From Spirochaetota bacterium (lineage in GTDB: Bacteria; Spirochaetota; UBA4802; UBA5368): a stretch of 45,607 nt of DNA. The position numbers and the translations under genes are program-made. Below the pieces are notes generated by a model. It was not told the DNA's origin and did not search any database. It saw nothing but the letters and a program-made list of their open reading frames with translations. The stretch lies in the NCBI GenBank assembly GCA_025457965.1, contig JALOTJ010000018.1:1-45607 (forward strand). Reading direction: 5' to 3'. The first letter of the stretch is position 1. The number at the start of each line of letters is the position of its first letter. Shown here in pieces: positions 17,647-45,607 of this stretch.

Positions 17647-17832
17647 ACCGATACGGCGCCGGGCTAAAAATGTCAATACTAAAAGATGTCGCGTGAATCT
17701 GACGAGGTGTATGGCCGGATGTGGACTGATTTTTCAGGCAAAGAATGCTGGTATTATACAGGCGGTCATGGTACGATTTCAGTACGCTTCCGCGTTCCGG
17801 GCGGCGCGATCTCTTTGACGGGAGGGTATATA

Positions 17833-18894
17833 ATGAGTATGCGGGTCAGCTTAACGGTTGCCGGCGTCATAGTAGTGCTGGCGATCATTTTATCGCTGAA
17901 AACATTTCACGACGCCGGTGAGTTTAAAAGTATTGTATCGCGATGCGACTGTGAGTGTGTCGAGTTCCACGGGTTGGCAGGGCCCGAAGACATCACCATA
18001 GACCCGGTTACCGGCCGGGCGTTCATATCGGCCGACGACAGACGTGCGGCGAAGGCGGGGAAGGCGGTAAGGGGAGAGATTTACGGTTTTGATACGCGTG
18101 CGGCCGATCCGAAACCCGTGCCGCTCACGGGAGATCTTCCGTTCGATTTTCACCCGCACGGCATCAGCCTGTACCGCGGCGACGGGGGAGATGTCAGGCT
18201 TTTCGTGGTGAACCACCGGACCGACGGGAATTATATAGAGATTTTTAAAGTGCGCGGCGAGAGGATCACTCATCTTGAGTCTATATCGGGCCCCCTGATG
18301 CACAGTCCCAACGATGTCGCCGCGGCCGGCAGGCGCAGTTTCTACGTGACCAATGACCATGGAAGCCTGACGAAAACGGGACGGATGGTGGAAGACTATC
18401 TGCAACTCAAGCGCTCATTCGTGCTGTATTACGACGGCTCCGCGTTCAGGATCGTCGCCCGGGGACTGGGATACGCCAACGGGGTCGCACTCAAGCCGGA
18501 CGGCAGCGAGCTCTATGTAACGTCCACCGTGGGGAAGAACCTGCTCGTGTACGGGCGCGACCGGAAATCGGGCGCGCTCTCGGCCGGGCGCTCGATAGAC
18601 ACGGGATTCGGTTCGGACAATATCGAGCTGGACGCCGATGGTTCGCTATGGATCGCGGGGCATCCGCGCATGTTGACCTTCCTCCGGCATGCCGCCGACG
18701 CGGCGGTACCCTCTCCCTCGAAGGTGCTGCGTATCGAGCTGAAGGCCGATGGCGGTGCGGCCATACGGGAGGTGTTCCAGGACGACGGTACGAAGCTGTC
18801 GGCCTCGAGCGTTGCGGCCCCGTTTCCGGGCGGCTTTCTCGTCGGTGCCGTTTTCGATGCACGCTTTCTTGCGTGCAGAACATCCGGACGGTAG
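17833..18894 (+). CDS. Paraoxonase/SMP-30-like six-bladed beta-propeller hydrolase
   Basis: The 353-residue protein resembles animal paraoxonases (PON), calcium-dependent lactonases and arylesterases. It starts with a membrane-anchor segment (VSLTVAGVIVVLAIILSL). PON-like landmarks appear in order: GPEDITIDPVTGRAFIS, FHPHGISLYRGDGGDVRLFV, HSPNDVAAAG followed by FYVTNDHGS, GLGYANGVALKPDG, and DNIELDADGSLWIAGHP. The Asn and Asp residues in NDV, ND, ANG and DN correspond to calcium ligands in PON1. The ATG at 17833 follows a GGAGGG ribosome site and begins the anchor. The C-terminus is close to the expected family end. A terminator hairpin follows before prfA. The natural substrate is unknown; a lactone is a reasonable guess from the family. 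Confidence 0.75.
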   Translation: MSMRVSLTVAGVIVVLAIILSLKTFHDAGEFKSIVSRCDCECVEFHGLAGPEDITIDPVTGRAFISADDRRAAKAGKAVRGEIYGFDTRAADPKPVPLTGDLPFDFHPHGISLYRGDGGDVRLFVVNHRTDGNYIEIFKVRGERITHLESISGPLMHSPNDVAAAGRRSFYVTNDHGSLTKTGRMVEDYLQLKRSFVLYYDGSAFRIVARGLGYANGVALKPDGSELYVTSTVGKNLLVYGRDRKSGALSAGRSIDTGFGSDNIELDADGSLWIAGHPRMLTFLRHAADAAVPSPSKVLRIELKADGGAAIREVFQDDGTKLSASSVAAPFPGGFLVGAVFDARFLACRTSGR

Positions 18895-36327: not shown

Positions 36328-37085
36328 CGGTACGGCGGGAGTCCTCGAAACTATATGAGAATGATGGCCGGTCGTCATTGGCAGCGGTAAAAATCATAAC
36401 CCTTTTCCCGGAGTTTTTCAACAGCCCCCTTTCGACGGGGCTTCTGGGCAGGGCGATACAGGCGGGGCTTTTCCGGGTGGACGTGATAGACCTGCGTGAT
36501 TTTGCCGAGAACCGCTATCGCCAGTGCGACGACTACCCCTACGGTGGAGGAAGCGGCATGGTGCTGATGCCTGGTCCGCTTTTCCGGGCCATCTCGTCCG
36601 TCAGGGAAGAGGGCACCAGGGTGCTGCTCACCAGTGCCTCGGGGACGCTGCTCACACAGGAACTGGTAAAGCGTTTTGCCGGCGAAAGGGATCTCTGCAT
36701 CGTCTGCGGGCACTACGAGGGCGTGGATCAGAGGGTCGTTGAGCGGTTCGTGGATTACGAGGTCTCGGTTGGCGATTATGTGCTTTCGGGCGGAGAGTTC
36801 GCGGCCCTTGCGATCGTAGACGCGGTCGCGCGGTACGTGCCGGGCTTCATGTCGAACAGCGAGTCGCTCGTTGAGGAAAGTTTCGAAGACGGACTGCTTG
36901 AGTATCCGCAGTATACCCGGCCGGCGGAGATCGATGGGCTCGCGGCACCGGAGGTGCTGCTGAGCGGTGACCACGCCAGGATCAGGCGCTGGCGTGAGGA
37001 ACAGCGAATTGAGAAAACCAGAAGGGTGAGGCCCGATCTGTATAAACGATATTGTGAAGGCAACGATAAAGGAGAAGAGCGATGA
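36324..37085 (+). CDS. trmD: tRNA (guanine-37-N1) methyltransferase
   Basis: TrmD methylates G37 of certain tRNAs with S-adenosylmethionine and prevents frameshifting. Family motifs are [41 protein letters not shown] and the trefoil-knot sequence [14 protein letters not shown]. The end DLYKRY is normal. The start is uncertain: TTG at 36324 overlaps the rimM stop but adds about 18 non-family residues; TTG at 36378 would begin at [10 protein letters not shown]. Both give a functional-looking enzyme. The gene overlaps rplS by 4 bases. Confidence 0.94.
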
Positions 37086-37513
37086 ATATACTGGAAAACA
37101 TCCAAAAAGAAATCATGCCGCCTGCGCGACCCCTGAATTTCGAGGTCGGCGACACCGTCAAAGTACACTACAAGATCGTGGAAGGCAACCGCGAGCGTGT
37201 ACAGGTGTTCGAAGGCATCGTAATCGCCATCAATAACAAGGGCGTCGGCAAGAGCTTTACCGTTCGCCGAATTTCCTACGACGTCGGCGTCGAGAGGGTC
37301 TTTCCGCTCTATTCGGCCCGTATCGCCAAAATCGAATCCATTCGCAAGGGCAAGACCCGTCGCGCCAAACTGTACTTCCTGCGTGAGCGGACCGGAAAAT
37401 CGGCCAAACTCAAGGAAAAGCGCGTCGCCCGTGGCAAGTCCGCGACGTCCGCAGTGGAAGTGCCGGCCACTACCGAGGTGGCGCCTGAGACCCCGGAAAC
37501 CGAAAACGCCTGA
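37082..37513 (+). CDS. rplS: 50S ribosomal protein L19
   Basis: L19 lies at the interface of the two ribosomal subunits. Residues 1-115 are canonical ([71 protein letters not shown]). A tail of about 28 residues rich in Ala, Thr, Pro and Glu is added ([20 protein letters not shown]), longer than in typical L19. The gene starts in an ATGA overlap with trmD. The tail looks disordered and is the only odd feature. Confidence 0.96.
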
Positions 37514-37544
37514 TTCGTCCGGCGGGGCGTCCCCGTCTCCCCGC

Positions 37545-38174
37545 ATGCCGTCGTTCGGCATCGAACGGGAATTGTTCGAGCAGGGTTATCGGCGGGGGGC
37601 CCTCGCGGGGCCCCTGTGTCTGGGCCTGGTGATATACTCTCCCGAGGTGCTCGCCGGCCCACCGGCCGCGCTCCTTTCATGCGTCAACGACTCCAAGAAG
37701 CTGACCCATTCCGCCCGTCTGCGTGCGTGCGGCCACATCCACGGAAGTGCAATGTGCGTTCATACCGCGATGGCCTCCCACAGAACCGTCGACCGGCTTA
37801 ACGTCAACGGAGCCACCCAATACCTTCTGAGTAAAATCATAACCGAGCTGGCCGAGCCGCCGGACGTTGTGATCATGGATGGCCGTTTCTCCTTTTCTCC
37901 CGGCGTGCGCTTTGTCGCGGTAAAGGGAGGGGATTCGCTTTCCATCAGCATCGCCTCCGCGTCGATCGCGGCCAAAATACACAGGGATGGCATACTCGAT
38001 AAATTTGAATTGCTATATCCAGGCTATGGCTTTAATAGAAATAAAGGCTACGGAACGCTCGAGCACCGGGAGTCCATCGGGCGTATCGGCCCATCGCCGG
38101 TGCACCGTCGCAGTTTCGCTCCTCTGCGCGATATGGCGTACCGGGAGGATCTTTTCGCGGGCCATGAGGATTGA
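37545..38174 (+). CDS. rnhB: Ribonuclease HII-like protein lacking the DEAGRG motif
   Basis: RNase HII removes ribonucleotides from DNA. The 209-residue protein carries most of the family: NDSKKLT near residue 48, VVIMDGRFS (Asp 112), VKGGDSLSIS (Asp 130), ASIAAKIHRDGILDKF and PGYGFNRNKGYGTLEHRE, ending PSPVHRRSFAPL. The N-terminal catalytic motif DEAGRG is absent. The sequence passes from IERELFEQGYRR directly to GALAGP, whereas homologues have about nine extra residues (IAGIDEAGR) there. It looks like a precise in-frame loss of 27 bases. The enzyme is therefore likely inactive or rewired, unless this is an assembly error. The position after rplS is typical for rnhB; the FliK-like gene overlaps its end by 11 bases. 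Confidence 0.85.
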   Translation: MPSFGIERELFEQGYRRGALAGPLCLGLVIYSPEVLAGPPAALLSCVNDSKKLTHSARLRACGHIHGSAMCVHTAMASHRTVDRLNVNGATQYLLSKIITELAEPPDVVIMDGRFSFSPGVRFVAVKGGDSLSISIASASIAAKIHRDGILDKFELLYPGYGFNRNKGYGTLEHRESIGRIGPSPVHRRSFAPLRDMAYREDLFAGHED

Positions 38175-39246
38175 TAATACCGCAACGATTACCGTAACGG
38201 GGAAGGGAGGCCTGGTCGAGGCCTTCCGGAGCCTTAAAAAGGGCGGGGAAATCAGCGCCAGAATAGTTGAGCGCATCGACGCGCATCGGGCGGTCATCGA
38301 GGTGGCGGGTCGACGCATTACCGCCGGCTTTGTGCGGGGGCTTCCCCCGGGCAATCTGCTAACACTGGTGCTCGAAAAGAGGAGCGGGGCGACCCTGGTG
38401 TTCAGGCTCGCGACGGCCGATCCGCAGGCCGCGGGTCGGGAGCGCCTGCTGGGATACACCGCCTTTGGCCGGGCCGATAGTGGCGGAATTCCCTTCGCGC
38501 GCGCGGCGGCGGACGGGATTTCGGGTGTATATGCGTATAACAGCCTGCTTTTCAGGCTGGCCGGTGGAGTCGAGAAAAAGGGAACCATGGTTGACGTGTT
38601 GAACGCACTTGCCGCCAGGGGTATAAAAAAAGAGCACGTGTTGTTTTTTTCTTTCCTTTTTTCGGATTTCGAGGGTATTAGTTTAAATTGCCTTGTCTCT
38701 GCCTTGGCGATTTCCGACAGGGAGGGCAGGCGGCGTCACAACCTAGCATTGAAAAGCTTTGCCGAACAAATGCGTTCCGGGGAAGGGTTGGACGGCGTTC
38801 TCGACGCTCTAAATGACCTCGTCGGGGAGGATTTAAACGGGGGTGAGCTGTTGCGGCAACTGCTCCAGGCCCTTCACGATGGTGGCGGGGCGACGGAGAT
38901 TCAGGCCAAAAGCGGCGTATTTTACTATTTAGACGATGGCTTTAAAGAGGCCCGGTACATAGGTAGCACGGACTCCATTGTGGCAATGGTGGATCTTTCG
39001 AAGATAGGACGTGTAGAGGTGCTTGCAAAAGACCGTGAAGGTCGGATAAGCATTGACGTTTATTGCGAAAACGAGAGCTTTCGCGCCGATCTGGGCGCCG
39101 ACGCGGAGTTCCTTGCCGGCACGATAGAAGAAGCTCTTGGCAGGGGCTGTTCGCTTTCCGTTAACGCAAGCGCTCAAGCCGTATTGAACATTCGCGCGCT
39201 CGGGGCGCTCCTTTCTCAAGGTGGTGAGTTCGATGCGCGGGCGTAA
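38164..39246 (+). CDS. FliK-like (flagellar hook-length control) protein candidate
   Basis: The 360-residue protein has no signal peptide or membrane segment. The C-terminal 70 residues (SKIGRVEVLAKDREGRISID, then VYCENESFRADLGADAEFLAGTIEEAL) match the general pattern of the FliK C-terminal domain, which has alternating strands and a helix after an 'E-x-x-R-x-x-L' phrase. The N-terminal part is unassigned. The neighbouring gene encodes a FlhB C-terminal-type domain, the normal partner of FliK in the substrate-specificity switch, which supports the call. It starts within the rnhB 3' end. Typical FliK proteins are longer and low-complexity; this one is compact. Confidence 0.45.
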   Translation: MRIDNTATITVTGKGGLVEAFRSLKKGGEISARIVERIDAHRAVIEVAGRRITAGFVRGLPPGNLLTLVLEKRSGATLVFRLATADPQAAGRERLLGYTAFGRADSGGIPFARAAADGISGVYAYNSLLFRLAGGVEKKGTMVDVLNALAARGIKKEHVLFFSFLFSDFEGISLNCLVSALAISDREGRRRHNLALKSFAEQMRSGEGLDGVLDALNDLVGEDLNGGELLRQLLQALHDGGGATEIQAKSGVFYYLDDGFKEARYIGSTDSIVAMVDLSKIGRVEVLAKDREGRISIDVYCENESFRADLGADAEFLAGTIEEALGRGCSLSVNASAQAVLNIRALGALLSQGGEFDARA

Positions 39247-39529
39247 AGGCGCCGAAAAACTGAGTATTGCCCTGGCATACTCCCCGGCGGACGAGGCTCC
39301 GCGCATTCTGGCAAGCGCGAGGGGGTACCTGGCCGAGCGGCTGGAGAAAATGGCGCGGGACCACGGCGTTGAAGTATACGCCGATCCGGATCTCGCCGGC
39401 GCGCTTTCGGCCCTGGACACGGGCAGTCTCGTGCCGCCGGACCTCTACAGGGCTGTTGCGGAAGTGCTGGCATACTGTTACAGGATTAATGAGCGCTTAA
39501 AAGAGAAACTGGCGGAGCAAGGGAATTAG
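39233..39529 (+). CDS. Stand-alone FlhB C-terminal-domain protein
   Basis: The 98-residue protein resembles the cytoplasmic C-terminal domain of FlhB/YscU export-apparatus proteins without the membrane part. It has ALAYSPADEAPRILASARGY, followed by KMARDHGVEVYADPDLAGAL and LVPPDLYRAVAEVLAYCY. These are the usual FlhB-C landmarks. The NPTH autocleavage motif of true FlhB is replaced by other sequence, so it is the separate 'FhlB/YlqH' type of accessory protein. The ATG at 39233 follows an AAGGTGG site. The gene overlaps the FliK-like gene by 14 bases. Confidence 0.8.
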   Translation: MRGRKGAEKLSIALAYSPADEAPRILASARGYLAERLEKMARDHGVEVYADPDLAGALSALDTGSLVPPDLYRAVAEVLAYCYRINERLKEKLAEQGN

Positions 39530-44388: not shown

Positions 44389-44416
44389 TTGACATATATG
44401 CTCATGGAAATAAAAG
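44389..44416 (+). promoter_or_regulatory. Promoter candidate of the formate dehydrogenase unit
   Basis: TTGACA (44389-44394) is followed after 16 bases by TAAAAG (44411-44416), a modest -10. It lies just before the riboswitch candidate. The 591-base gap between the methylase gene and the formate dehydrogenase gene has no coding sequence that I trust. Confidence 0.4.
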
Positions 44417-44424
44417 AAAATCAC

Positions 44425-44520
44425 TTCGAGTCTTCGCTCCTACGGCGGGTGCTATGGAGCCTGACCGCAGGCCGGGCGAGAAATCACCCCGCCTCCCGAT
44501 TCAGTAAAGAAGAAAAGCCT
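44425..44520 (+). promoter_or_regulatory. Moco (molybdenum/tungsten cofactor) riboswitch candidate
   Basis: The leader of the formate dehydrogenase gene contains a core that resembles the Moco RNA motif known upstream of E. coli moaA. Seen: outer stem TCTTC/GAAGA (44431-44435 with 44509-44513), a GCTCC/GGAGC arm (44436-44440 with 44456-44460) and a hairpin GGCG (44475-44478) with CGCC (44490-44493) around an AAAT-containing loop, followed by TCCCGATTCAGTAAAG. In E. coli the same place reads GGCGAAG-loop-CTTCGCCTCCCGTATCTGGAAAG as I recall it. The gene it precedes encodes an enzyme that uses bis-molybdopterin guanine dinucleotide, so the regulation makes sense. Downstream hairpins (44549-44580; 44610-44642) could be the expression platform. 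Confidence 0.7.
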
Positions 44521-44609
44521 TTTCGGGCAATGGAGGATGGGGCCCCCGGGCTCCGGTTTCCGCCGTTGCGGGAAGGAGCCGCGCATGGTGCGGCCATACT
44601 AATTTCAGG

Positions 44610-44646: not shown

Positions 44647-44770
44647 CACGGTATCCGGGTATGCTCTTTCATGCCTCCATCGAATATATGTCTTTCGCCT
44701 TCGCGGAATGCACATAGAGAATTTAAACATTTCATCACCGGTCGATCAAAATAAAGGCAGGAGGATAGTT

Positions 44771-45607
44771 ATGTCCATAACCAGAAGAGATTTCCTCAGG
44801 CTGTCCGGCGTAACGGCGGCGGGGGCTTTCTTTGGTGGCGTATCGTTCCTCAGCGGATGCAAGTCCGCGCCGGACAAGCTCCAGGGGACTCGCGAGAGCA
44901 CGACGATATGCCCCTATTGCGGAGTCGGGTGCGGCCTTATCGTTTCCGCCAGGAATGGGAAAGTCGTCAATATCGAGGGTGATCCTGACCATCCGATAAA
45001 CCAGGGCTCCCTTTGTTCCAAGGGCAGCGCGCTCTTTCAGATCTCCGACAATCCAAGAAGGCTTTCGAAGGTCCAGTACAGAAAGCCGTACGGCACGGAC
45101 TGGGAGGAGATTTCCTGGGACCAGGCCGTAAAGATGATCGCGCGTAAAGTCAAGGACACCCGCGACGCGACCTTCATCGAAAAGGAAGGCGATGTTACGG
45201 TGAACCGCTGCGCGGGAATCGCGAGCCTCGGCGGCGCCGCGCTCGACAACGAGGAGTGTTACACGCTCTCGAAATTCGCGAGGATGCTCGGTATAACATA
45301 TTTAGAGCATCAGGCGCGTATTTGACACAGCGCAACAGTCGCCGGTCTGGCGGCTACCTTCGGTCGTGGCGCGATGACCAATCACTGGATTGATATTAAG
45401 AACGCGGACGTCATTCTTGTCATGGGGTCGAACGCCGCGGAAAACCATCCCATTTCATTCCGCTGGGTGCAGAAGGCGAAGGACGAACACGGGGCCAAGC
45501 TCATCGTTGTCGATCCCCGCTTCACCAAGTCGGCCTCGCTCGCCGATCTCTACGCGCCGCTGCGTCCCGGGTCGGACCTGGCTTTTCTGGGCGGCATCGT
45601 CAACTAT
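44771..45607 (+). CDS. TAT-exported selenocysteine formate dehydrogenase catalytic subunit (3' end outside window)
   Basis: This is the N-terminal part of a molybdenum/tungsten formate dehydrogenase alpha subunit (FdnG/FdhA type), oxidising formate to CO2. It starts with a twin-arginine signal, SITRRDFLRLSGVTAAGAFF, ending in a Cys that could be lipidated. The [4Fe-4S] motif CPYCGVGCG-x26-CSKG follows. At 45323-45325 an in-frame TGA is read as selenocysteine, giving ARI-Sec-HSATVAGLAATFGRGAMTNHW, the FdnG active site; the frame stays open to the window edge with family sequence (DVILVMGSNAAENHPISFRW). The ATG at 44771 has an AGGAGG ribosome site. A SECIS element follows the TGA. A sequence annotator could wrongly end the gene at 45325. 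Confidence 0.95.
45323..45361 (+). promoter_or_regulatory. Bacterial SECIS element
   Basis: Immediately after the TGA, GTCGCC (45338-45343) and GGCGGC (45349-45354) form a six-base-pair stem with the loop GGTCT (45344-45348). In E. coli fdhF the SelB-binding loop is also GGUCU, and it starts at the same position, 22 bases from the U of UGA. This strongly supports selenocysteine insertion. A selB/selA/selC set must exist elsewhere in the genome. Confidence 0.88.

Follow-up and report, generated by a model that had tools for sequence, protein, structure and literature searches.

A recent in-frame deletion appears to have left a Spirochaetota bacterium with a catalytically dead RNase HII, encoded by the sole RNase HII gene found in this lineage; the probability of this reading is put at about 60%. 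The gene lies in the window, i.e. the whole stretch of 45,607 nucleotides that was analysed, which corresponds to one contig (C156) in a 3.23-Mb genome (174 contigs, 77.6% complete). Most likely, the active-site segment was lost recently and in this genome only, or the assembly is at fault; neither a new system nor a new kind of enzyme is indicated, and the best explanation rests on a single assembly of one genome of the species. The features concerned are:

37082..37513, + strand: rplS (ribosomal protein L19), intact upstream neighbour (PF01245, 148 bits)
37545..38174, + strand: rnhB-like ORF, RNase HII minus nine residues, 209 aa plus stop (PF01351)
37587..37604, + strand: deletion join YRR/GAL, from pairwise DNA and protein alignment with a congener
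37596..37615, + strand: GC-rich inverted repeat GGGGCCC...GGGGCCC, just 3' of the join
38167..39246, + strand: intact downstream gene (ORF), its ATG overlapping the rnhB end
Contig C107: RNase HI ORF, 229 aa

The deletion and its surroundings

The translation of the ORF at 37545-38174 begins MPSFGIERELFEQGYRRGALAGPLCLGLVIY, and the product matches PF01351 over profile positions 8-197 (64.1 bits, cut-off 25.8; Pfam). It misses the cut-offs of the NCBIfam RNase HII equivalogs (150.9 bits versus 243 and 150.4 versus 167), these scores being those of the window protein only and not of its congeners. In the pairwise DNA alignment, 27 bp of the congeners are missing at ~37592/37593, in frame and equivalent to nine codons. 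The join, at ~37587-37604, has the sequence TAT CGG CGG GGG GCC CTC (YRRGAL), and the window thus reads YRRGALAGP where congeners read YRR-IAGVDEVGR-GALAGP. The columns of D22, E23 and G25 are gaps in the window protein, and motif 1 (DExGRG), the Asp and Glu of which are invariant across 25 homologues, is absent; the RG at the join consists of the arginine preceding the deletion and the glycine following it, and which arginine was retained is not distinguishable. The third and fourth carboxylates (the MDG Asp, D112, and the GGD Asp, D130), both invariant in the alignment, are kept. There is one private substitution in a nearly invariant column, E92Q, which is not among the four carboxylates.

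The preliminary description, made from the sequence alone, had reported an N-terminal Asp-Glu motif cleanly missing in frame, with CGG triplets flanking the join and with intact later motifs, frame and operon. Alignment with close relatives, one of the checks it proposed, bears this out: all four congeners (L003-L006; 71-92% protein identity to the window protein) carry the nine residues, as IAGVDEVGR or, in one, IVGVDEVGR, and the nearest of them, L003 (92% identity), has 27 extra bases coding for IAGVDEVGR. CGG codons are seen at the join, the motifs NDSKKL, MDG, GGDS, NKGYGT and HRRSF are all undamaged, and since neither the frame nor the overlap into the downstream gene is lost, the operon would be undisturbed. 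The loss of the motif named there as DEAGR(G) therefore stands, but not the wording, as the genus has DEVGR.

The gene downstream (38167..39246) matches no Pfam family and is conserved in the congeners. A short protein of 102 aa in the same gene run (39221-39529) has a match to FlhB (PF01312) that is confined to the C-terminal part. Upstream of rnhB (37383-37545), the start assignment is ambiguous across the genus: the ATG at 37545 is common to L003 only among the congeners, L004 having CTG there, and in L004 and L005 no ATG, GTG or TTG occurs within 60 codons upstream in the open frame that overlaps rplS. Elsewhere in the window, a molybdenum/tungsten cofactor riboswitch (RF01055, 45.9 bits) at 44412-44528 is located ~180 bp upstream of an ORF (44708-45325) that combines a TAT-like signal and the Fe4S4 domain of molybdopterin oxidoreductases.

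Assembly, origin and age of the deletion

Over 28.9 kb the window is syntenic with the nearest congener, G004, at 88% DNA identity, and synteny with two of the congeners is supported by DNA alignment. No indel other than the 27-bp deletion falls inside a gene body in these 28.9 kb; the rest are found outside genes or at most a few bases from where a gene ends, and a generally error-prone assembly of this stretch was rejected on these grounds. A single-base difference at 17817 falls before the point where its gene, the arylesterase/SMP-30-like ORF 17686-18894, probably begins: the start assigned mechanically at 17686 is likely incorrect, and the conserved protein seems to begin near 17830.

A local artefact of assembly or library preparation, in which the organism has the full motif and 27 bp were skipped by the assembler or polymerase at the GC-rich inverted repeat, is clearly less probable than a real deletion but remains a serious competitor. 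The join directly abuts GGGGCCC...GGGGCCC, a possible stall site for replication or PCR, and the genome is fragmented and incomplete, as in metagenome assemblies; the records of three congeners are MAGs. However, the DNA fold of the repeat (-13.7 kcal/mol, z -1.65) is only weakly better than that of shuffled sequences, the deletion length is an exact multiple of three, and no other gene body in the 28.9 kb carries an indel. Moreover, short-read assembly errors are typically not consensus deletions with ~3 bp of microhomology, which makes such an origin atypical here. A real deletion, on the other hand, would imply an allele present in at least part of the population, and its cause would presumably be slippage. 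L005 and L006 have CGG as the arginine codon preceding the join; if this was also the ancestral codon, as the sequences suggest, the microhomology flanking the deletion amounts to ~3 bp. Slippage at CGG is a plausible origin, with a deduced repeat of only this length.

The precision of the deletion is no argument for a special mechanism, which is not required. When 27-bp deletions are placed at random in the ORF, both acids are lost in ~3.5% of placements and one of the four carboxylates is hit in ~14%, while an in-frame length arises by chance in one of three cases; the retained overlap with the downstream gene may also favour in-frame survivors.

Using G003 as outgroup, nine amino-acid changes and 22 silent ones fall on the window branch and nine and 26 on the sister branch, whereas ~89 amino-acid changes would be expected if the gene had been neutral over the whole window branch. 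The dN/dS versus the sister is near 0.11, as low on the window branch as for the neighbours, and at most ~4-11% of the branch was free of constraint, a rough estimate from three taxa. Because there is no excess of amino-acid changes on this branch, either the deletion is very recent, or it is a minority allele, or it is an artefact, or the protein is constrained otherwise. The unaltered purifying selection on the remainder of rnhB is thus also in line with the artefact, since an assembly error or a minority allele would yield the same pattern of constraint.

Active site and predicted fold

In the RNase H2 of T. maritima, D18 and E19, where strand 1 ends, form the active site together with D107 and D124, archaeal enzymes mutated at the equivalents of D18, E19 and D107 are devoid of activity, and the GRG motif and a tyrosine detect the ribonucleotide (PMC3025331). 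The window protein lacks the segment that corresponds to strand 1, the Asp-Glu pair, which supplies half of the four metal-binding carboxylates, and the first two positions of GRG. Given the known roles of these residues (PMC3025331), the window protein would lack metal-dependent cleavage and is presumably catalytically dead; of the options offered in the preliminary description, that of an inactive enzyme follows from the same roles. In the proposed scenario, a very recent 27-bp in-frame deletion would have removed strand 1, the Asp-Glu pair and most of GRG in a single step.

The AlphaFold model of the window protein adopts an RNase HII-like fold (pLDDT 85.9; highest TM-score by query against solved RNase HII 0.79). 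By target, the TM-score to 7uwe_C is 0.84 for the window protein and 0.92 for the intact congener, with E-values of 2.6e-15 and 1.8e-20, respectively. The intact congener has strands at residues 18-24 and 33-39, and the window protein at 17-21 (RGALA) and 25-31; with strand placement judged from the order of elements in the models and not from coordinates, downstream residues appear to be drawn into the place of strand 1, bringing no acidic residues with them.

Retained activity, in which IERELFEQ or the shifted RGALAG strand would stand in for the missing part, is highly improbable. In its favour, phmmer aligns FGIERELFEQGYRRG onto T. maritima FGIVAGVDEAGRG with a gap; but the congeners have IERELFEQ as well as DEVGR, residues 5-12 form a helix in the model as in the intact protein, and RGALA, in its predicted strand position, offers no acidic residue. 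The presence of both segments in the congeners also led to the rejection of a displaced Asp-Glu pair in IERELFE, a placement that had been raised at the outset; this segment is an ordinary N-terminal flank.

A non-catalytic role in binding nucleic acid or RNA polymerase, for which loss of the motif would be tolerated or selected, is unlikely. Structures of E. coli RNase HII within a complex for transcription-coupled repair exist (PDB 7uwe, 7uwh), and both the persistently low dN/dS and the predicted RNase HII-like fold are compatible with such a role. However, a recent deletion explains the low dN/dS equally well, and alignment-based AlphaFold models tolerate destabilising deletions and are no test of stability. 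Furthermore, the state occurs in no other genome of the order, i.e. there is no sign of long-term upkeep. The stronger version, in which a precise excision made the RNase HII of this lineage a folded but non-catalytic protein selected for binding, is more doubtful still.

Distribution, remaining RNases H and known enzymes

A recent inactivating deletion, the preferred reading, would be an isolated event. The Pfam profile detects RNase HII in 44 of the 46 genomes of the order; the match starts at profile position 8 in this genome alone and at position 1 or 2 in the other 43, and the two genomes without a match are ~71-72% complete. Across the phylum, matches occur in 284 of 296 genomes, and among those listed the best-scoring all begin at positions 1-3. 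Re-checking 15 genomes, mostly low-scoring ones, yielded no second case in which motif 1 alone is missing: their partial matches are located at contig ends or are split by an insertion or break. The phylum survey is incomplete, covering the listed matches and these 15 genomes, with the partial matches judged collectively. A scan of a named collection, which returned three of the four congeners, gave no second genome of this species. Among the papers searched, none has both RNase HII and DEAGRG, and three matches for RNase HII with pseudogene and rnhB appeared off topic, judging from titles and abstracts.

In the assembly (174 contigs, 77.6% complete), neither a second RNase HII or HIII gene nor a second or intact copy of the rnhB locus was found, and a DUF429-type RNase H, considered as a substitute, is likewise not present in the genome; as the genome is incomplete, another enzyme could reside in its missing parts. 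The search for other RNases H suggested in the preliminary description thus gave no RNase HIII but did retrieve an RNase HI. On inspection, this ORF carries TDGASRGNPG, NNFAEY, RTDSELV and NDKADYLA, with the four acidic motifs in place. Type 1 RNases H need four ribonucleotides to cleave (PMC3025331), and single ribonucleotides would therefore stay in the DNA. Judged by its motifs, RNase HI should still clear R-loops and primers and cover longer hybrids, whereas the excision of single embedded ribonucleotides would be lost. By analogy, the loss of RNase HII is probably survivable, since E. coli and B. subtilis are reported to be able to do without RNases H in some conditions (PMC4429107).

Ribonucleotide removal from DNA is initiated by RNase HII, which nearly all genomes surveyed retain. 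Should the deletion prove genuine, the lineage would be naturally rnhB-null and dependent on RNase HI alone, offering a way to ask how far ribonucleotide excision can be dispensed with outside the laboratory; as an artefact, the deletion would instead caution against calling pseudo-enzymes from single assemblies. By sequence and predicted fold, the window protein belongs to the same family as T. maritima RNase H2 (2etj, 3o3g) and E. coli RNase HII (7uwe chain C), with which it shares the later motifs. In contrast to bacterial RNase HII (RnhB, PF01351) in general, it is devoid of IAGVDEVGR and thereby of strand 1, two carboxylates and most of GRG.
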